Of a stretch of DNA of 62,233 nucleotides, positions 35,154 through 56,825 are shown one piece after another. Under the pieces are notes generated by a model. The model was not told where the DNA came from. It saw only the letters and a program-made list of their open reading frames with translations, and did not search any database. The position numbers and the translations under genes were made by a program. The stretch is from Spirochaetota bacterium (lineage in GTDB: Bacteria > Spirochaetota > JAAYUW01 > JAOAHJ01). Location: contig JAOAHJ010000007.1 in the NCBI GenBank assembly GCA_026415295.1, positions 1 through 62,233 on the forward strand, read 5' to 3'. Each line of letters starts with the position of its first letter. Position 1 is the first letter of the stretch.

Positions 35154-36506
35154 TTAGTTGTCAATATTAAAAACTTTTTTCTTCTCCCCCATTTTTATTT
35201 TCATTGTTAATATTTTATCAGATTGAAAAATTTTATTTGTTAGAAAAATAAATATCATAAAGACTATAAATTGATATATTATTCCAGCTCCAACTAGTAA
35301 ATAATCTTTCAACAAAAGTGAGTTTATTACAAAGAAAGGATGCGCAAATGGTATTGCATAAATTATTAACTTAACCACTATAGGTAATTCATTAATATTT
35401 AAAAAAATACTTAAAAAATAAGGAATTAGAGACAAAAACATAATAGGAGTTATAACTGTTTGAACTTTCTTAACATCTTCTGCAAACAGACCAAGAATTA
35501 ATGAAATAGCAAGAACATTTAAAATAGCAGTAAAAATAGAAAGTGCTACTAATAAATAATCAATAAATTTCAAATTAAAATCTATATTTTTAAGAATAAT
35601 AGACATTTGTTTTGAAGCTTCAGATAATGAGGAAGTATTCATTCCAGTTACCCCTCTCATATATGAATTGAATCCTATAATATAAATTAGAGCCATAAAT
35701 AGTGAAACAATAGCACCAGCTATCATTTTAGAGGTTGCTATATCACTTCTTCTTATAGGTATAGAAAGTAAAGTTTCAAGTGTTTTATTCTCTTTCTCAG
35801 ATGCAATTGCAACTGCAACCATTTGAGAGGACATTATTATTAACATGTATACTATAATTGGAACTAATAAATTTTGTAAATACAAGAAACCAATTATCAT
35901 TTCTAGATTTCCTTTGGTAACTTTTCCATTAAAAATAACAAATTCGTTGTATGAGACTGGATTTTCATAAAATTTATACTTTTCATCTGGAAACAAATTA
36001 GTATATATCATTTTGTTAAAAGTTTTCAAAATATTAATTAAAGAACCTCCTGATGATCTACCAAAACTTATACCCCCAATACTTTTTAAAACATTATAAA
36101 TTTCAAACTGTATATCTTCTATATTTTTGCTTATTATAAAATTGAAATAGCCCTTTTTAATAAATAAAATTGTGTCGAGTTTATGTTCTTTAGCATATTG
36201 AAAATCTTTAAGAAAATCAATATTTTCTGCTTCTTTTACAAAAAAAACAACATTTGCTTTTTCTAAAAATGATAATAACTCTTTTTTTAATGGTTCATAT
36301 GAAGAAGACTGGGAATCTTTCTCAAAGATTATATAAGTCGATATTTTCTTATTTTGGGCTTTCTTAGTTTCAGAAGACATTATTTTTCCAATTAGAACAA
36401 AAATTAATACAGTAATAATTAAAGGAAGAATCATATTAATAGTAAGAAGTTCTTTAATCTCTTTTTTTAATAAAATAAAAAACTTATTTTCACCGATATT
36501 TTTCAT
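35154..36506 (-). CDS. ABC-2 type permease, NatB-like
   Basis: One N-terminal TM helix, a roughly 170-residue extracytoplasmic domain and five or six C-terminal helices, as in NatB/YhaP-like Na+ or drug exporters. The coupling region AIASEKENKTLETLLSIPIRRSDIATSKM is the family hallmark. Start set at ATG 36506, one nt after the ATPase stop, with GAGGAT as the Shine-Dalgarno inside the ATPase gene's last codons; an in-frame ATG at 36518 is less likely. It ends 41 nt before ntpF on the same strand. Substrate not determinable; Na+ is suggested by family and location. Confidence 0.9.
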   Translation of the reverse strand: MKNIGENKFFILLKKEIKELLTINMILPLIITVLIFVLIGKIMSSETKKAQNKKISTYIIFEKDSQSSSYEPLKKELLSFLEKANVVFFVKEAENIDFLKDFQYAKEHKLDTILFIKKGYFNFIISKNIEDIQFEIYNVLKSIGGISFGRSSGGSLINILKTFNKMIYTNLFPDEKYKFYENPVSYNEFVIFNGKVTKGNLEMIIGFLYLQNLLVPIIVYMLIIMSSQMVAVAIASEKENKTLETLLSIPIRRSDIATSKMIAGAIVSLFMALIYIIGFNSYMRGVTGMNTSSLSEASKQMSIILKNIDFNLKFIDYLLVALSIFTAILNVLAISLILGLFAEDVKKVQTVITPIMFLSLIPYFLSIFLNINELPIVVKLIIYAIPFAHPFFVINSLLLKDYLLVGAGIIYQFIVFMIFIFLTNKIFQSDKILTMKIKMGEKKKVFNIDN

Positions 36507-36507
36507 T

Positions 36508-37245
36508 TTAATCCTCATTTTTATTTAGACTTATAAGTTCAATAAAAACTTCTTCTAAATTTGATTTATTGAATTTTTTCTTTAACTCTTCTGGTTTTCC
36601 AATTTCAAGAATATTCCCTTTATATATGAATCCAACTCTATCTGATAAAAATTCAATTTCTAGCATATTATGAGAAGATAAAAGAACAGACATCCCTTCT
36701 TCTTTAAAAGATTTAATTATTTTTCTTATTTCAAATGCATTTTGAACATCAAGTCCGCTTGTTGGTTCATCTAAAATTGCAAGTTTAGGTTTAAACATAA
36801 TTGATCTTGCAAGTAAAAGTTTTCTTGTCATTCCTTTTGAATATGTGGTAACTTTATTTTTTAATCTATCTCCAAGACCACATATCTCTGAAGCTTTCTC
36901 AATAAATTTCTTTTTATCTTCTCTATTTTTAGCAAAAAATGATGCCATAAAATCAAGATATTCTTGTCCTGTTAAATTTTTATAGACCCCAGCTTCTTCA
37001 GGAAGATAGGAAATATTTTCTCTAATTTTATTATCATCTTTGCCATAAACGAAATCACCAAAATATATCTCTCCCTCATCTTTTTTTAATATTGTTGCAA
37101 TAATCCTTAAAGTGGTCGTTTTACCTGCTCCATTTGGTCCAATTAAAGCAAATATTTCTCCTTTTTCAATATTAAAACTAATACCTTTTAAAGCTTTTAA
37201 ATCTCCATAACTTTTCTTAAGATTACTAACACTTAATATACTCAT
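36508..37245 (-). CDS. ABC transporter ATP-binding protein, NatA-like
   Basis: Walker A is GPNGAGKT (36-43), the Q-loop region YLPEEAGVYKNLTG, signature YSKGMTRKLLLARS and Walker B LAILDEPTSGLD, followed by the switch His in LLSSHNMLE. The YSKGM signature is usual in the NatA/CcmA group. Energises the permease that follows after one nt. AGAGG precedes ATG. Probably the first gene of a transcript that may run on into the V-ATPase operon. Confidence 0.93.
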   Translation of the reverse strand: MSILSVSNLKKSYGDLKALKGISFNIEKGEIFALIGPNGAGKTTTLRIIATILKKDEGEIYFGDFVYGKDDNKIRENISYLPEEAGVYKNLTGQEYLDFMASFFAKNREDKKKFIEKASEICGLGDRLKNKVTTYSKGMTRKLLLARSIMFKPKLAILDEPTSGLDVQNAFEIRKIIKSFKEEGMSVLLSSHNMLEIEFLSDRVGFIYKGNILEIGKPEELKKKFNKSNLEEVFIELISLNKNED

Positions 37246-37421
37246 TCAAAAACCTCTAAAAATTATTTTGTTATTCTCTAAATTAATCTTATAAAGAATG
37301 AAACATCTTGTTTTAATAGTTAATAAAAAACTTTAATCTACAAGAACTAAATCTATTATTAAAACAGTTTTTTTCTATAAAAAAAAATACACCACTATTA
37401 AAAAATTAAAATAAAAAAATA

Positions 37422-38453
37422 TTAAAACTTATACCCCATTGAAAAAGAAAAGAAGCTTTCTTTATAATTTAAAAAATAGTTATAATATAAAATAAAAGCA
37501 AATCCAGCTAAATCTAAAACTATACCAGCTCCTATTGAATTATAGTAAGATGAATAATTTTCAACATTAGTAAAAAGATCATAGTAAATAATTATACCAT
37601 ATTTTATAAATCCTTCCCCAAATATAAATCTTATATCATTATTTAGAAAAGATTTCACATCACTTTCAAAAATATAACCATACTTATCAGAAGAAATTCC
37701 TCTTATTCCTGTCCCTATTCCTTTACCATAATTATAAAACCTATTCATGAGAGATCCATATTCAACAGCATTAATAAGAAATGGGGTATTATTCTTATCT
37801 GACATTTTATCAAAAACAAAAAGGTTATAATAAGAAATATCTATATTAGTAACTCTTAAAATATTAAATTTAATATATGATGTTAAAGAATATTTAATTA
37901 AATTATTGTTGAATAAAGGATTCTGGGCACTTTTTGGGTAATAATTTAAACTTAAATCTATTAACCAACAATTTTTTAAAAATTCCCCATCAAGAACTTT
38001 TATTATGGAAATAATAGAATTTAATGAAATTCTATTTAAATAATAAAATTGTTTCTCTAAATAACCAGCATTTGTATAGAAAGAACCAGGTGAAAAATAA
38101 ACATAGGATTGATTTTTTAAGACTAAACTTAAAATTAAAAAATTAATTGGCATGAAACTGAATTCAACTTTACCACCAACTGTAAAGTAATTAGCTTTAA
38201 CATTTTTTATATCCCCAGAAAAAACACCACTAAAGTTATTAGTTAGGTTATTAAAAAAGTAATCCCCATAATATCCAACATTTCCATATAAATTAATATT
38301 TCCAAAATTATAAATCATTAAAAGTTTTAAATCAAGCCCAAAAATCCCAATACCAAAATCAAAGTCAGTTTCAAAAGCATAAATATTAAAAGAGAATACA
38401 ATAATTAAAATCAATATTAACAAAATTAAATAATTAAAAGTTATTTTTTTCAT
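37422..38453 (-). CDS. Predicted outer-membrane beta-barrel protein
   Basis: Signal peptide (MKKITFNYL, hydrophobic to about residue 26, cleavage near NIYAFE), then alternating aromatic/hydrophobic beta-strands with many Tyr, Phe, Asn and Gly, ending in FSFSMGYKF with the terminal Phe that BAM recognises. 343 aa would allow a barrel of about 12-14 strands. No recognised family. AGGAG precedes ATG. It lies alone upstream of the NatAB-V-ATPase block on the same strand. Confidence 0.8.
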   Translation of the reverse strand: MKKITFNYLILLILILIIVFSFNIYAFETDFDFGIGIFGLDLKLLMIYNFGNINLYGNVGYYGDYFFNNLTNNFSGVFSGDIKNVKANYFTVGGKVEFSFMPINFLILSLVLKNQSYVYFSPGSFYTNAGYLEKQFYYLNRISLNSIISIIKVLDGEFLKNCWLIDLSLNYYPKSAQNPLFNNNLIKYSLTSYIKFNILRVTNIDISYYNLFVFDKMSDKNNTPFLINAVEYGSLMNRFYNYGKGIGTGIRGISSDKYGYIFESDVKSFLNNDIRFIFGEGFIKYGIIIYYDLFTNVENYSSYYNSIGAGIVLDLAGFAFILYYNYFLNYKESFFSFSMGYKF

Positions 38454-49642: not shown

Positions 49643-50959
49643 ATGAAAAAGAAAATTTTATCCGTTTTATTTTCTATTTTTATAATTTTAATTAATTTTA
49701 TTTTAATTATTTCTTGTCATCCAAAATTTTTATATAATAAAAATGAAGATATAGAATTTCATTGGACAAAGTTAAGAGGTAGTATTTATGAAGAAAACTG
49801 CCAATCAACATGTAAAGATAATATTGGCAACATTTATATATTAGGTAATTCTAACAGTTCTTTTGATGGACAAACAAATTATGGTTCCTATGACTTTTTT
49901 ATAATTAAATATGACAGTAATGGAAACCATATATGGACAAGATTTAAAGGAGGTTCGGAAATAGATTATGCTTATGATATAGTTTATGACCCAAATGGCT
50001 TTTTATATGTTGTCGGTTATACGAGTGGAAGTTTTGACGGACAGACAAATAATGGTAGTGATGATATTTTTGTTGTTAAATACGATTTAAATGGTAATAC
50101 AATATGGACAAGATTAATAGGAACAAATTCTAATGATCAAGGAAGGGCAATCTGCATTGATAAATCTGGCTATATATATATTACAGGTTCATCATGGGGC
50201 AATTTTTATGGTGCTAATAATGGTCAAAACGATACTTTTATATTAAAACTTGATCCAGGAGGAAATGTTTTATGGGGTGTATTAAGAGGAAGTAATAATT
50301 ATGAAAATGGTATGGATATTATAACAGACAATGATAACAATATATATTTATGTGGAAATACAAATGGTTCATTCGATTCCCAACTTAATAATGGAGGAGA
50401 AGATATATTTGTTATAAAATATAGCTCAATAAATTCATCTCCAATTCATGAATGGACAATATTTAAGGGATCTAGTATTGATGATTATGTTACTAAAATA
50501 TTTTTAGATAGTAATAATAAAATTTATATTGTAGGAACAACATTTGGAAATATTGATTCTCAATTAAATATGGGTGGAGGAGATGGATTTATTATTAAAT
50601 TAAACAATATTAATGGAAATACAATTTTTACAAAATTAAAAGGTGGTCCATTACAAGAAGATGGTTATTTTAGCATTTTTATTAAAGAATATTTTATATA
50701 TGCCATTGGATATACCAATTCTTCTTTCGATAGTCAAATAAATAATGGCGGAGAAGATATATTATTAGTAAAATATGATATTAATGGCAATCATATCTGG
50801 ACTAAATTTATAGGAACAGAACAAAATGAAACAGGAGTTGATATATTAATTGATAATTTCGGAGCCATTATTATGGTAGGAAATGCTGCAGGTCCTCTAA
50901 ATAATCAACTCAATTTTGGAGAATCTGATGTTTTTATAATAAAATTATTAAGCAAATAA
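49643..50959 (+). CDS. Lipoprotein with seven SBBP-type repeats (seven-bladed beta-propeller)
   Basis: Signal with lipobox LIISC (C25). The rest consists of seven repeats of about 55-60 residues, each with W-T-(K/R)-(L/F)-x-G, then (D/N)xxGxIYIxG, SFDxQxNxGGxD(I/F)F(I/V)(I/V)KYDxNGN. Seven copies close one beta-propeller. Likely exposed on the outer membrane or in the periplasm. Ends KLLSK with no anchor. The decayed propeller lipoprotein at 45798 is a similar type. It meets the barrel gene at 50964 convergently with a 4-nt gap. Function unknown. Confidence 0.87.
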   Translation: MKKKILSVLFSIFIILINFILIISCHPKFLYNKNEDIEFHWTKLRGSIYEENCQSTCKDNIGNIYILGNSNSSFDGQTNYGSYDFFIIKYDSNGNHIWTRFKGGSEIDYAYDIVYDPNGFLYVVGYTSGSFDGQTNNGSDDIFVVKYDLNGNTIWTRLIGTNSNDQGRAICIDKSGYIYITGSSWGNFYGANNGQNDTFILKLDPGGNVLWGVLRGSNNYENGMDIITDNDNNIYLCGNTNGSFDSQLNNGGEDIFVIKYSSINSSPIHEWTIFKGSSIDDYVTKIFLDSNNKIYIVGTTFGNIDSQLNMGGGDGFIIKLNNINGNTIFTKLKGGPLQEDGYFSIFIKEYFIYAIGYTNSSFDSQINNGGEDILLVKYDINGNHIWTKFIGTEQNETGVDILIDNFGAIIMVGNAAGPLNNQLNFGESDVFIIKLLSK

Positions 50960-50963
50960 AAAG

Positions 50964-52379
50964 TTAAAAATTTATCGATGTATTAAGATTAATTGTTAAT
51001 ATCTTATTATAAGGATAGGTAAATTCTCCTTTTTCTTCACCAAAATTATATGAACACCTTATATTTATTGGAGGATAATCACCAAAATATATATTTGTAG
51101 AAAAAACCAAAATAAATGTATTATCTGTTAAATTTCCATACAAACTTAGACTTAAATTCAAATGATTTTGAAAAAGTTTACTTTTTGCTATTGAACTTGC
51201 GAAATAGTATTTTCCATAATAAAAGGGTATAAAATAATCAGATAAATTCTTACCTAAGACCATTATAAGAGGTATTACTTCATCTATCTTTTCAATTCTA
51301 TATCCCTGAGAATTGTAAAAAAAAGTAAAAGAAAAACTCAAACTTTTATCTTCTAAAAAATTTTTAGAAATTCCTGTAACTATTTGCAATGATGGTAAAG
51401 GTGGTAATATTTCTTCTACTAAATAAGGAAATGCTGCTTTCTTTATTCCTTTGATAAAATAACCATTAAAATATGACATTTCAAAATAGATATCTAAACT
51501 TAAATTGGTTCCACCAAAAAGAGTCCCAGAAAAATCAAAACCTATTTTTGGCTCATAACTCTTTCTAAAGTAACCTGTTAAACCAATTTCAAATCCAGAA
51601 AATGTAAAATCAATTCTTGTACCAAGACCACTTTTTTTAATATCATAATTTATAGAACTGCTATCTAATCCATATAGATCCCAGAAAAAAAACAAATTTA
51701 TTTTATTTAAAGGTATATGCATTCTAACTCCTGGTTTACCACCCCTTGTATCCTGAGAGGAAAGAAAATTATATTTCTCAAGATTGATAAAATCAACTGG
51801 AGTCCACATAAAAGATGGCCCCCAAGAAATCAACTGTTTACCAACCCTAATAAATAAAAATGGTAAAATGTTATAATCAAAGAAAAACTCGGAAAGATTT
51901 AAATTTAAGTTATTTAGTTGATATGAATTTTTAAATTTATCTATATTGTCTGTAAAATAATAAATATAATAAGAATAATTATACTTGACATAAAATTTTA
52001 ATATTTCCATAAATGAAATAGAACCAAAAAAATTACCTGAAATTAAACCATTTGAATTATAATTATTATAATCACTATAAAAATTATAGTTATTTGAATA
52101 ATTTATAAAACCTCCAAATAGAAAGGAAAAAGTATTTTTTTTTGCTTCTTCCTTTTGCTTTTCAAACTCTTTATCAAAATTTTCTTCAGAATAAATATCT
52201 TCTTCAGAAGAAGTTTCCTGAGACAACACTTTATAACTAAATAAAAAACTATAAACTGTTAAAATAGTTAAAATTATTATAGAATAACTAAGTTTTTTTA
52301 ACATATTTTTTATAAATAAATTATCAAACTTAAAAATTTTATTATAATTAAATTTTTTAAAAAAATTAATTAATCTCAT
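50964..52379 (-). CDS. Predicted outer-membrane beta-barrel of a Lol-like export cluster
   Basis: A leader of about 26 residues precedes a signal-like helix (KLSYSIIILTILTVYSFLFSYKVLSQ), then a Glu-rich stretch and a long Tyr/Phe/Asn-rich beta region. RVGKQLISWGPSFMWTPVDFIN with TRGGKPGVRMHIP is a motif of DUF1302-like porins found with LolA-like and FtsX-like genes. Start set at ATG 52379, six nt after GGAG; a TTG 12 nt upstream overlaps that site. It follows the LolA-like gene by 33 nt and is the last gene of the cluster, probably its outer-membrane partner. Confidence 0.8.
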   Translation of the reverse strand: MRLINFFKKFNYNKIFKFDNLFIKNMLKKLSYSIIILTILTVYSFLFSYKVLSQETSSEEDIYSEENFDKEFEKQKEEAKKNTFSFLFGGFINYSNNYNFYSDYNNYNSNGLISGNFFGSISFMEILKFYVKYNYSYYIYYFTDNIDKFKNSYQLNNLNLNLSEFFFDYNILPFLFIRVGKQLISWGPSFMWTPVDFINLEKYNFLSSQDTRGGKPGVRMHIPLNKINLFFFWDLYGLDSSSINYDIKKSGLGTRIDFTFSGFEIGLTGYFRKSYEPKIGFDFSGTLFGGTNLSLDIYFEMSYFNGYFIKGIKKAAFPYLVEEILPPLPSLQIVTGISKNFLEDKSLSFSFTFFYNSQGYRIEKIDEVIPLIMVLGKNLSDYFIPFYYGKYYFASSIAKSKLFQNHLNLSLSLYGNLTDNTFILVFSTNIYFGDYPPINIRCSYNFGEEKGEFTYPYNKILTINLNTSINF

Positions 52380-52412
52380 AAAAAACTCCAATTTTTTACT
52401 TTTTATAGATCA

Positions 52413-53168
52413 TTATCTTGATTGATTTTCTAAAAAAGCTTTAGTAAAAATATAATCAGGTATTTTTGAAATAGAAAAATCTTCAATCATTATTGAAGTT
52501 TTTTTGCCTTCTTCTATATTGTCAACAATCAATATTTTTGTTGCAATATATTTTTCACCTTTTAATTTCTCATACTTTATATAGTAATCAGTTTGCATCA
52601 ATTTTTCAGATTGGGAAAAATATTCTCTTTTTACTGGAAGCATAGATTCTTTATCAACATAGATTTTTTGTATTGGATATGAAACATCAAGTTTTTTTGC
52701 TTTTAGCAAAATTACATAAGTGTCAAATTTTGCTACTTTTTCATCCTTTAAATAAGAAATATCATAAAGTTCTTCTGTTTTCATTTTTTCAAAACTTTCA
52801 GCTTTAGCATTTGTATCCCCAACATTCTCTTTTCTATTCTTATAAACAAACTCTCTAGTTGCAGGAAGATACATATAAAAATCATCCTTTATTCTTAAAT
52901 AACCTTTTCCTTTCTCTGAGTCTGGTTCAATAAAAATAAGAACAAATTTATCTTCCTTATCTCTTCTATACCATCTTAACTTATAAACCTTATTTGAAGA
53001 ATTTGGATCAACCTGTATTATATTTAAAGTCGTTGTTATATCTTCATCATAGTTCAATTTATTTTCAATATCTCTTATAACTTTAACAGGATCAATCTTC
53101 TTTTGTGTTTGGGCAGTAAAAAAAATAAAAATTATTATTAACAATGTAGTTAAAAATACTTTTTTCAT
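52413..53168 (-). CDS. LolA-like outer-membrane lipoprotein-sorting protein
   Basis: Signal peptide (MKKVFLTTLL to about AQTQ) and the beta-barrel lipid-carrier fold: DPVKVIRDIENKL, LRWYRRDKEDKFVLIFIEPDSEKGKGYLRI, DDFYMYLPATREFVYKNR, then LDVSYPIQKIYVDKESMLPVKREYFSQSEKL. These match the LolA_like (outer membrane lipoprotein-sorting protein) group rather than classic LolA. Start moved to ATG 53168 because GGAGAGG lies just upstream, inside the longer frame. Probably ferries lipid or lipoprotein from the ABC transporter to the barrel next door. Confidence 0.87.
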   Translation of the reverse strand: MKKVFLTTLLIIIFIFFTAQTQKKIDPVKVIRDIENKLNYDEDITTTLNIIQVDPNSSNKVYKLRWYRRDKEDKFVLIFIEPDSEKGKGYLRIKDDFYMYLPATREFVYKNRKENVGDTNAKAESFEKMKTEELYDISYLKDEKVAKFDTYVILLKAKKLDVSYPIQKIYVDKESMLPVKREYFSQSEKLMQTDYYIKYEKLKGEKYIATKILIVDNIEEGKKTSIMIEDFSISKIPDYIFTKAFLENQSR

Positions 53169-53254
53169 TTTCCTCTCCAATTTAATTTATTATTTTATAT
53201 TTTAATATTTTATTATTGCAATGCTATCTTGTTAATTATTATTTAATAGACTTC

Positions 53255-54583
53255 TTAAAATTCTCTCCTCAATGCTTCAACTGGTTTTATTTTACCTGCA
53301 TATCTAGAAGGTATATACGCAAAAATAATAGTTAAAAAAATAATAGCTAAAAGAAGAAAAATTAATTGTAATAAATTTATTAGAAAAAATAAATGTCCCC
53401 CTTTCAAAAATAATTGAAGATCTCTAATAGATGAAAGATCAATAAAATATGAAAAAATAAAAATTAAAAACCCCCCAACTATATATCCAATAAGTGTAAA
53501 AATAATGCCAAGGATTACATTTTCTAAAATAAACAACTTAACAATATCTTCTCTTTTCATTCCAATTGTTCTTATAGTTCCAATTTCAACCATTCTATTA
53601 TTTATAGTCATTCTTATATTTATAAATAATGAAACTCCTATTATAAGAAAAAGTACAAAACCTATAACAAGTGCTACACCATTTAAAACAGAAGTAAATC
53701 TTTCAACAGCACTCATAATTTCATCTATTGCAAGAATAAAGAAAAAGGTACCATTTTTATTACTTTGCATAAAGTCTCTAATAAATTTTAAAAAAGCATT
53801 ACCTCCCTGTTTGCTAAAATCAAGATATTCTTTAATTACATTATAACCTTTCTCTTCTAAAATATTATTTACCTCTTTTTTTAAATTTAATGTATTTCTT
53901 TTCTCTTTTTTATCAAAATAGATCAAAATTTCTTCAGATGAATCCAAAGGGAAATTAAGTCCCTTTTTTAAATATGAAAGATGTCCAAAACTCTGAGTTG
54001 AAAGTAGAAGATTTGAGCTTTTATAAATCCCCTTTATTACAAAAAATATAGTATTATATGCCCCTGTATATGTTTTAACTACTCCAAGAATCTCGTCCCC
54101 AATATCAACTTCAAGATAATTTGCATCTTCTTCAGAAATTATTATTGAAGATTCATCTTCTAAAAAATCTTTCCAGGAGCCTTTTAATATGGTAATCTTA
54201 TTAATTCCTTTTTTATCAATTTCAGGGTCTATTCCAGTAATATCAATCATTTTTGAAAAACCTTTACTATAAACTCTAAATCCAGAAGAAATTCTAAATA
54301 AAATCTCAGAATCTTTAAATTTTTCTTTAATTATTTTCTCTATTTCTTTGTTGTAATTTATTATTCTTTTAAAACTTTGCCCATTTTTATCAAATCCAAA
54401 AATAGTTAAGTCTCCAAAAAATGCTTGTGTAAAATTCTCTTTGAAGTTTACTTTAACTCCATTAGTAAAAGAAAATACAATAATTAAAATAAATCCGATT
54501 ATTGAAAAAGTTGCACCCAGTGAGACTGATCTCTTTTTATCCCTAAAAATATTTCTAAATGCTATTTTTATTAAGTTTATCAT
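53255..54583 (-). CDS. FtsX-like (MacB/LolC-LolE type) ABC permease 1
   Basis: Four-TM MacB/LolCE topology: N-terminal helix, periplasmic domain (about 40-280), three C-terminal helices. N-terminal NLIKIAFRNIFRDKKRS and GTIRTIGMKREDIVKLFILENVILG plus C-terminal PSRYAGKIKPVEALRREF are family hallmarks. AAGGAA precedes ATG. Works with the ATPase at 56148 and the second permease. Confidence 0.93.
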   Translation of the reverse strand: MINLIKIAFRNIFRDKKRSVSLGATFSIIGFILIIVFSFTNGVKVNFKENFTQAFFGDLTIFGFDKNGQSFKRIINYNKEIEKIIKEKFKDSEILFRISSGFRVYSKGFSKMIDITGIDPEIDKKGINKITILKGSWKDFLEDESSIIISEEDANYLEVDIGDEILGVVKTYTGAYNTIFFVIKGIYKSSNLLLSTQSFGHLSYLKKGLNFPLDSSEEILIYFDKKEKRNTLNLKKEVNNILEEKGYNVIKEYLDFSKQGGNAFLKFIRDFMQSNKNGTFFFILAIDEIMSAVERFTSVLNGVALVIGFVLFLIIGVSLFINIRMTINNRMVEIGTIRTIGMKREDIVKLFILENVILGIIFTLIGYIVGGFLIFIFSYFIDLSSIRDLQLFLKGGHLFFLINLLQLIFLLLAIIFLTIIFAYIPSRYAGKIKPVEALRREF

Positions 54584-54657
54584 AAATGTTTTCCTTATTT
54601 TTACTTATATTTGAAATATCTATATAATACTTTTCTATATAATACTTTTTGTATCAA

Positions 54658-56046
54658 TTAAACTCTTTCTAACATAGCTTTAAGAGGAGTTATTTTAGTA
54701 GCAACTTTCAAAGGATATAATGTTGAAAGTATTGTTACCAAAATAAGTATAATAAAAATTGATATTAGAGATGAGCTTGTTAATTTAAAAAATAACTTTC
54801 CTCCTCCATACATCATCTGAGCAAAGTTTTTTGGTAATGAAATTCCTACCTTTCCAATAATAAAAACAACAACTGCTCCAATAATTATACCTAATATAGT
54901 AAAAAATATTGTAACTATTAATGACTCATATATATATTGCTTTGCTATGAAAGACTTTGATCCACCTATAGCTCTTATTGTTCCTATTTCAGCAGTTCTC
55001 TCAAATATATTTATTATAAAAGTATTCATTAAAATAATACCTACTGTTATAAAAAGAATAAAAGCAATAATTGTTATAAATATTTGAATAGCATTTGCAA
55101 TTTCATATATTCCAGCTGAAGCTTTTCTCCAATCAACAACTTTAACTCCTAACTCTTTTTTTTCATTTATTTTACTAATTATTTCTGGTATATCTTTCTC
55201 ATTTTTTAGTAAAACCATTATCATTGTTACCCCACTATTATTAGACCAACTCAGTTTACTAAAATCAATTGTTTCTCTATTCTTTTCTTCAGATACAGAA
55301 TCCTCGGCAAAAATATCTTCCTCGCTACCTGTAGAAAGAAGTTTCTGTAAATTATTAGGTAAAGACTCAATTAGTAAACCCTGAAAATTAAATAATTCTT
55401 TATAAGTTTCTATATCAATGTAATCAATTCCTCTAAATTGATCATTAAAAAGTTTATTTCTAAATATACCAACAACTTTAACCTTTTTAGAGTTAATTGA
55501 GCTTGATCCTGAAGTTCCAATTAAAGTTAAAATATCTCCTATTTTAACATCTATTCCTCTTTCTTTTAAACTTTTCTTTGTATTTGTTGAAATAATTATT
55601 CCAGACTCATTAAAAAAACTTCCTTCTATTATTTCAATATTTTTAAATATACCCTCATATTTTTTTGGATCTATTGCATTAAAAACAATTGAAACTGATA
55701 TATCTGAATCTGTATCAACTATTGCAAAATTTTGAGCCATAGGAACATAAGCTTTTATTTTATCTTGATCTTTTAAAAACTTAACAATCTGATCAAAATT
55801 TTCGATTGTTGGTAATGGTTGACTAAATGAAAAAGGACTTGGTAAAATTTTTGACTTTGATGAATAAATTACAATGTGCCCTGTATAATTGTTTATTATT
55901 GAATTTTTAGTTGCTTCTTTTAGTGAATATACAAAAGAATTACCTATTAACAAAAATAAAACCCCAAACAAAATTAATATTCCAATTGCTATAAGTTTAC
56001 CTTTATATCTTAATACTGATCTAAATGCAATTTTTAAAATTAACAT
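54658..56046 (-). CDS. FtsX-like (MacB/LolC-LolE type) ABC permease 2
   Basis: Paralogue of the next gene with the same four-TM layout: LKIAFRSVLRYKGKL at the start, GTIRAIGGSKSFIAKQYIYESL in the coupling region and TLYPLKVATKITPLKAM at the end. The periplasmic domain carries an acidic insert (about 235-260, TGSEEDIFAEDSVSEEKN). Two different permeases imply a LolCE-like heterodimer. AGGAG precedes ATG. Confidence 0.93.
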   Translation of the reverse strand: MLILKIAFRSVLRYKGKLIAIGILILFGVLFLLIGNSFVYSLKEATKNSIINNYTGHIVIYSSKSKILPSPFSFSQPLPTIENFDQIVKFLKDQDKIKAYVPMAQNFAIVDTDSDISVSIVFNAIDPKKYEGIFKNIEIIEGSFFNESGIIISTNTKKSLKERGIDVKIGDILTLIGTSGSSSINSKKVKVVGIFRNKLFNDQFRGIDYIDIETYKELFNFQGLLIESLPNNLQKLLSTGSEEDIFAEDSVSEEKNRETIDFSKLSWSNNSGVTMIMVLLKNEKDIPEIISKINEKKELGVKVVDWRKASAGIYEIANAIQIFITIIAFILFITVGIILMNTFIINIFERTAEIGTIRAIGGSKSFIAKQYIYESLIVTIFFTILGIIIGAVVVFIIGKVGISLPKNFAQMMYGGGKLFFKLTSSSLISIFIILILVTILSTLYPLKVATKITPLKAMLERV

Positions 56047-56147
56047 ACTTTTCTCCTAATTTATGAAAAAAATATTTTATGAAATAACCTATCTATGAAA
56101 TAATTTATCTTAGTAAAACTATTAATTATTTATAATTTTAAAATTTA

Positions 56148-56825
56148 TTAACTATTAACAATCTTTCCATCGTGGATTTTTATAATTCTATTTGCATGAC
56201 TCATAATATCTGGATCATGTGTTGAAAAAACAAAAGTTGTTCCCTCAATTTTATTTATTTCTTTCATTAAATCAATTATTTTTTGCCCTGTTTCTGAATC
56301 TAAATTAGCAGTTGGCTCATCTGCAAGTATAATCTTAGGATTTGTTACTAAGGCTCTTGCAATAGCAACTCTCTGCCTTTGACCACCAGATAGCTCAGCA
56401 GGTTTGTTTTTTATTCTATCTTTTAATCCTACTTCCTCTATGAATTTCATAACTATTTTTTCTCTTTCGGCTTTACTCATTTTACCTTTTAATAATAATG
56501 GAAATTCTATGTTTTCATAAACATTTAATACAGGAATTAAATTAAAAGATTGAAATATAAATCCTATTTTATTTAATCTAATTTTAGTTAACTCTCTATC
56601 TTTTAAATTATTAACCATTTCCCCATCAATAAAAACCTCTCCCTCCGTAGGAGAATCTATGCAACCTATTAGGTTCAATATTGTAGTCTTACCAGAACCA
56701 GAAGGTCCAGCAATGCATACAAACTCACCTGGGTCTATTTCCATATCTATCCCTCTTAAAGCATGAACTTCAGTCTTATCAAGTAAATATACTTTTTTTA
56801 CATTTTTAAGTATTATACAACTCAT
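56148..56825 (-). CDS. LolD/MacB-type ABC ATPase
   Basis: Walker A GPSGSGKT (40-47), signature LSGGQRQRVAIARAL, Walker B IILADEPTANLD and switch His in FSTHDPDIM. The FIFQSFNLIPVLNVYENIEFPL Q-loop region is typical of LolD/MacB ATPases that drive mechanotransmission permeases. AGGAG precedes ATG. First gene of the five-gene cluster reading ATPase-permease-permease-LolA-like-barrel. The three 14-mer repeats lie just upstream. Confidence 0.95.
   Translation of the reverse strand: MSCIILKNVKKVYLLDKTEVHALRGIDMEIDPGEFVCIAGPSGSGKTTILNLIGCIDSPTEGEVFIDGEMVNNLKDRELTKIRLNKIGFIFQSFNLIPVLNVYENIEFPLLLKGKMSKAEREKIVMKFIEEVGLKDRIKNKPAELSGGQRQRVAIARALVTNPKIILADEPTANLDSETGQKIIDLMKEINKIEGTTFVFSTHDPDIMSHANRIIKIHDGKIVNS

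Follow-up and report, generated by a model that had tools for sequence, protein, structure and literature searches.

A putative accessory Lol-like export cluster in spirochaetes with an acidic-LF motif shared by a permease loop and the barrel tail

Results

The window, that is, the whole 62,233-nt stretch of DNA that was analysed, contains five open reading frames on the minus strand between positions 50964 and 56825, arranged in the order ATPase, permease P1, permease P2, carrier and barrel, with intergenic gaps of ~75–110 bp (Table 1). A sequence-only reading of this DNA had proposed a LolD-type ATPase and two LolC/E-type permeases here, and the open reading frames together with Pfam and NCBIfam profiles bear this out, below the equivalog level: the ATPase scores 240.4 bits against TIGR02211 (LolD equivalog cut-off 307.75), and P1 and P2 match TIGR02212 (lolCE) with 80.0 bits (E = 1.6e-22) and 73.7 bits (E = 1.3e-20), respectively, both far under its equivalog cut-off of 362.45. 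FtsX and MacB_PCD domains (Pfam) are found in both permeases, for which LolF and LolE ranked top in profile searches, above MacB. The gene neighbourhood contains no membrane-fusion protein, MacA or TolC, either among the five cluster genes or in the next genes.

The same reading had named a LolA-like carrier and a DUF1302-like barrel, and both assignments hold with a qualification. The carrier is well above the cut-off of 30 for PF17131 (LolA_like) at 124.5 bits and matches the solved LolA-superfamily proteins 3buu, 3bk5, 4z48 and 9tp6, but it belongs to PF17131 and not to PF03548, the true LolA family; an alternative Met start is possible at 53168. The barrel, whose reading frame stays open to 52391 with a likely start at 52304, matches DUF1302 (PF06980) weakly (8e-4, 18.9 bits), under the cut-off of 23.2, and the barrel of one relative passes just over it at 23.4 bits. 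By sequence, the cluster barrel would be at most a distant DUF1302 relative; as a barrel it is borne out by the porin-type model described below. Convergent with the barrel gene, at 49643–50959 on the plus strand, lies a gene for an SBBP beta-propeller lipoprotein (LipL53-like profile match 1.1e-54, below cut-off), the two stop codons being 4 bp apart; this gene is not kept beside the cluster in two related genomes of the same order that were compared.

Table 1. Positions of the cluster genes and of features within their products (window coordinates).
Feature	Position	Strand	Basis
LolD-type ABC ATPase, 225 aa	56148..56825	-	ABC_tran 6.7e-35; TIGR02211 LolD_lipo_ex 1.5e-71
Permease P1, 462 aa, type VII ABC permease (LolC/E-like), 4 TM helices	54658..56046	-	Profiles, AF2 model
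Low-confidence (probably disordered) periplasmic loop of P1, residues 224-268	55243..55377	-	AF2 confidence and secondary structure; absent from E. coli LolC
Docking-like motif in P1, residues 240-249, GSEEDIFAED	55300..55329	-	Sequence comparison
Permease P2, 442 aa, LolC/E-like, without motif, without Hook	53255..54583	-	Profiles, alignment
LolA-like periplasmic carrier (PF17131), 255 aa, signal peptide	52413..53180	-	PF17131 5.1e-36
Outer-membrane beta-barrel, 446 aa from likely start, ~18 strands, C-terminal Phe	50964..52304	-	Weak DUF1302 match, AF2 model
Docking-like motif in barrel N-terminal tail, residues 31-40, TSSEEDIYSE	52185..52214	-	Sequence comparison

The AF2 model of P1 (pLDDT 80.7) displays four TM helices and a periplasmic domain, and its best structural match is LolE of LolCDE (Z 28.0 over 386 aligned residues), compared with a Z of 19.9 for MacB. 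With LolE as the better match and no adjoining MacA/TolC, MacB-type efflux is disfavoured. The P1 loop is modeled with low confidence at residues 224–229 and 248–268, on either side of a short helix at 242–246. The barrel model (pLDDT 69, pTM 0.62) consists of ~18 strands preceded by a disordered N-terminal tail. The structural matches listed for it are of the porin type, all with 18 strands (C. jejuni MOMP, Z 20.8; Occ porins, ~20; AlgE, ~19), and there is no Omp85 protein among them. The predicted fold is thus, at this pLDDT, that of an 18-strand porin-type barrel.

A single-sequence contig search with the carrier returned nothing, and an alignment-based search gave 13 named loci; the same gene order is found at named loci in Treponema putidum, T. 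lecithinolyticum, several Spirochaetales MAGs and two MAGs labelled Bacillota, the latter two (L089 and L093) carrying the full five-gene cluster. A P1 profile detects relatives in 192 of 393 genomes of the phylum at E <= 1e-25, and a strong class at E <= 1e-80 in ~140 of the 393 (hand count), about a third of the sampled spirochaete genomes. Among 96 annotated P1 loci, P1, P2, carrier and barrel are contiguous in 84, with the ATPase first in 76 of these and eight more contributing the remainder. Conservation of order at this level excludes a chance grouping of genes and supports a conserved five-gene unit, with a barrel as its outer-membrane partner as earlier proposed. The other 12 loci comprise three contig ends, one interruption by an N-stretch, one paralogue from the cluster's own genome, two copies of one divergent Treponema cluster and three T. 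vincentii-like genomes, the last two loci being left out of this breakdown. In the three T. vincentii-like genomes the barrel has gone from the cluster and is found elsewhere on the chromosome (E ~1e-138 to 1e-140). A related lipoprotein gene lies directly 3' of the barrel at six loci (L087:10399-11862, L088:10590-11918, L090:2716-4134, L120, L132 and L171), and its product is a possible cargo or partner.

PF17131 itself is present in 159 of 198 genomes of the phylum (E <= 0.001). In many of its neighbourhoods the ABC genes are replaced by a large polytopic RND-like transporter (780–970 aa, 10–13 TM) together with a barrel ending in a C-terminal Phe; this RND-like version was recorded at L045-L059, L070, L071 and L083. 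To judge from gene order, the carrier and the barrel seem to stay together while the inner-membrane engine can be exchanged. At L062 (genome G146), two consecutive ATPase-permease-permease sets share a single PF17131 carrier and a single gene downstream.

The genome (2.10 Mb in 39 contigs, 96% complete) also encodes other Lol-type proteins. Its only PF03548 match, a canonical-type LolA, is located on contig C6, and contig C16 carries a LolF-like permease paired with a LolD; this LolF is the genome's top scorer against TIGR02212 (232.6 bits), likewise under the cut-off. The window cluster is therefore an extra, accessory system, and the reading that it serves as the cell's only Lol is rejected. 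The expectation that no separate canonical set would exist fails on this LolA and LolF/LolD and survives to the extent that the separate set is without LolB. No match to LolB (PF03550) was obtained anywhere in the genome at E <= 1, as the sequence-only reading had anticipated, but this absence is normal outside the beta/gamma-proteobacteria, to which LolB is limited (PMC11784454), and so says little about the cluster. A paralogous cluster of ABC, PF17131 and barrel-like genes is located on contig C39, followed by a TetR-like gene; its second permease (L011:6775-8073) is split by an in-frame TGA, which may reflect a pseudogene, an assembly error or readthrough.

The Hook of LolC grips and recruits LolA. 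An alignment with E. coli LolC shows every one of the 13 P1 and 13 P2 sequences to be short by 6 residues at the Hook, whereas the genome's own LolF shows no gap over this stretch and keeps its length. Judged from this alignment, both P1 and P2 are without the LolC Hook. The P1 loop, which has no counterpart in LolC, is situated downstream of the Hook position in the same periplasmic domain and bears an acidic motif, [DE]-x-[LI]-F, that recurs in the N-terminal tail of the barrel.

We counted this motif with the regular expression [DE][DESNA][LIMF]F[GSADEN] in the 76 clusters that remained after near-duplicates were removed at 85% P1 identity. It occurs in 71 of the 76 P1 loops and in 52 of the 76 barrel tails, at rates of 29.8 and 8.7 per 1000 aa, respectively. 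The corresponding background rates are 0.06 for P1 outside the loop, 0.39 for the barrel outside the tail, 0.16 for P2, 0.10 for the carrier and 0.13 for other ORFs. The LF core occupies one alignment column in nearly all P1 proteins, and the relocated T. vincentii-like barrels still carry the motif (SLEDELFG...). In some systems the ten-residue segments of P1 and barrel are near-identical, such as DDDLFGAPET and DEDLFGAPET at L114, or DDLDSLFSDA and DDLDSLFSEA at L153. Matched P1/barrel segments score 28.9, compared with 20.1–21.2 for composition-only shuffles and 18.2–18.8 for segments taken from elsewhere in the same systems. That P1 and barrel both have the motif is, at the level of sequence, well supported.

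A stronger proposition, that the two copies vary in lock-step, is convincing by eye and by a simple permutation (mismatched pairs score 24.2, z 8) but failed a partial Mantel test: once relatedness is removed, the co-variation between P1 and barrel motifs is gone (r 0.01, p 0.41). Compared with nearest relatives only, matched pairs gain +1.97 ± 0.87 in score. Nor is the motif supported as a general trait of PF17131 systems, as RND-type relatives are mostly without it on the pump side; it follows that the carrier can work without the motif. Three barrels of the RND version (L056, L057 and L059) begin with a similar motif, YDALF.

Discussion

The cluster shares a LolD-type ATPase, a LolA-fold periplasmic carrier and a type VII permease, here with a P1 fold closest to LolE, with both LolCDE-LolA-LolB of E. 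coli and the LolDF-LolA systems of most Gracilicutes. It differs from canonical Lol in that its carrier belongs to PF17131 rather than PF03548, both permeases are without the Hook, a barrel stands in LolB's place, P1 and barrel bear the acidic-LF motif, and canonical-type LolA and LolF/LolD exist separately in its own genome. With MacAB-TolC it has in common a type VII ABC permease that contains FtsX and MacB_PCD domains, but it is without a fused ATPase, MacA or TolC, and P1 scores clearly lower against the MacB structure than against LolE.

A literature search for this exact cluster found no description of it. The closest precedents are Borrelia BBJ23-BBJ29 and AmeABCD of Castellaniella defragrans. 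The former is also a spirochaete cluster, consisting of a LolD/LolE-like ABC transporter, a LolA-like protein and an outer-membrane barrel, and was proposed to export a non-polar ligand (PMC13078400); its barrel is of the Omp85 type rather than the porin type predicted here, it has one permease (a homodimer) instead of two, and it is plasmid-borne and includes two TPR proteins, of which the window cluster has none. The latter, tested for monoterpene tolerance (PMC6394551), likewise couples an inner-membrane engine to a LolA-fold protein and a DUF1302 barrel that act on apolar compounds, but uses an HAE3 RND pump, a DUF1329 carrier and an extra COG4447 periplasmic protein. What is new here is the combination of apparently Hook-less permeases with the same motif on the P1 loop and the barrel tail, in what we regard as a variant of Lol-like carrier export systems.

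We consider it reasonably probable that the cluster is an accessory Lol-like export system whose carrier is recruited at both ends by one acidic-LF peptide and hands its cargo to the barrel. In the proposed mechanism, the ATPase and the two permeases would extract cargo and pass it to the carrier, which would cross the periplasm, dock onto the barrel tail by means of the same motif that had recruited it to P1, and hand the cargo to the 18-strand barrel for release into or through it. The peptide would be held out on the disordered P1 loop and on the disordered N-terminal tail, replacing both the LolC Hook and the lipoprotein LolB. We infer that the carrier is the motif's receptor, since no other protein of the set is both soluble and periplasmic; complex formation, the direction of transport and entry into or passage across the outer membrane are inferred likewise. 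For a contact between carrier and barrel, the shared motif counts as indirect support. Carrier residues F111, Y203 and K247, conserved in this group alone, are candidates for the site of docking. The best reading of the sequences is that pump and barrel may dock the same carrier through one motif. The fuller version, in which both display one docking peptide, a single carrier recognizes both ends of the route and delivery is free of LolB, we advance tentatively, at somewhat less than an even chance.

The motif may, however, have nothing to do with the carrier: it could be a piece of low-complexity acidic sequence that two disordered segments tolerate, or bind another periplasmic factor. Both segments are indeed disordered and acidic, and they show no co-variation beyond phylogeny. 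We nevertheless hold this to be rather unlikely, since residue order counts (shuffled segments fall well below matched ones), the LF core stays in a single column of the alignment in almost every P1, other proteins very rarely contain the motif, a barrel no longer linked to the cluster has kept it, and the carrier is the sole soluble periplasmic candidate in the set.

As regards cargo, the foremost candidates for the Lol-like system outlined above are a lipid or glycolipid and some subset of lipoproteins; small apolar compounds could also be carried. The similarity to LolE and the lipoprotein gene that follows the barrel at six loci point to an acylated cargo, whereas the porin-like lumen of the modeled barrel could equally serve small solutes. 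Missing LptD was dropped as a pointer to lipid cargo: PF04453 gave nothing over cut-off in any of 21 relatives and is hence uninformative.

Detoxification after the manner of AmeABCD, with the ABC pump giving small apolar compounds to the carrier and the barrel acting as exit pore, would fit the resemblance of the barrel to small-solute porins and the RND-PF17131-barrel versions found in many spirochaetes; deletion of AmeABCD, an HAE3 RND pump with a LolA-superfamily protein and a DUF1302 barrel, lowers monoterpene tolerance (PMC6394551). The cluster's pump is LolE-like and not MacB-like, however, and LolCDE handles acylated substrates; the cluster's retention in oral Treponema as well as in environmental taxa points to an endogenous substrate. 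We judge this function improbable. Equally doubtful to us is a surface-export route in which particular lipoproteins are delivered and flipped to the cell surface by the barrel. The P1 structure is nearest to LolE of lipoprotein-bound LolCDE, a related lipoprotein gene follows the barrel at the six loci, and a similar role has been proposed for Borrelia BBJ23-29, but most clusters have no such downstream gene (it is present in 5 of 76), the genome encodes a separate LolA and LolF/LolD that would handle lipoproteins, and the barrel looks neither Slam- nor Omp85-like, by sequence or among the structural matches listed.

Two questions are described as open (PMC11784454): by what means diderms without LolB complete the delivery of lipoproteins, and how the spirochaete outer membrane receives its glycolipids. 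The shared tag suggests, from sequence, a hand-off route leading from the inner membrane to the outer. If the carrier binds both peptides, this would constitute a general hand-off principle that needs neither Hook nor LolB; in spirochaetes, such LolB-free delivery might then serve surface lipids or lipoproteins generally. Docking becomes a testable hypothesis through the specific peptide tag that both membrane components carry, in a gene set present in about a third of the sampled spirochaete genomes.

Another possible ABC-barrel pairing is located in the same window at 35154–38453 on the minus strand, where genes for an ABC-2 permease and an ATPase are followed by one for a 343-aa barrel-like protein that has a signal peptide, ends in KF and is without a Pfam match.
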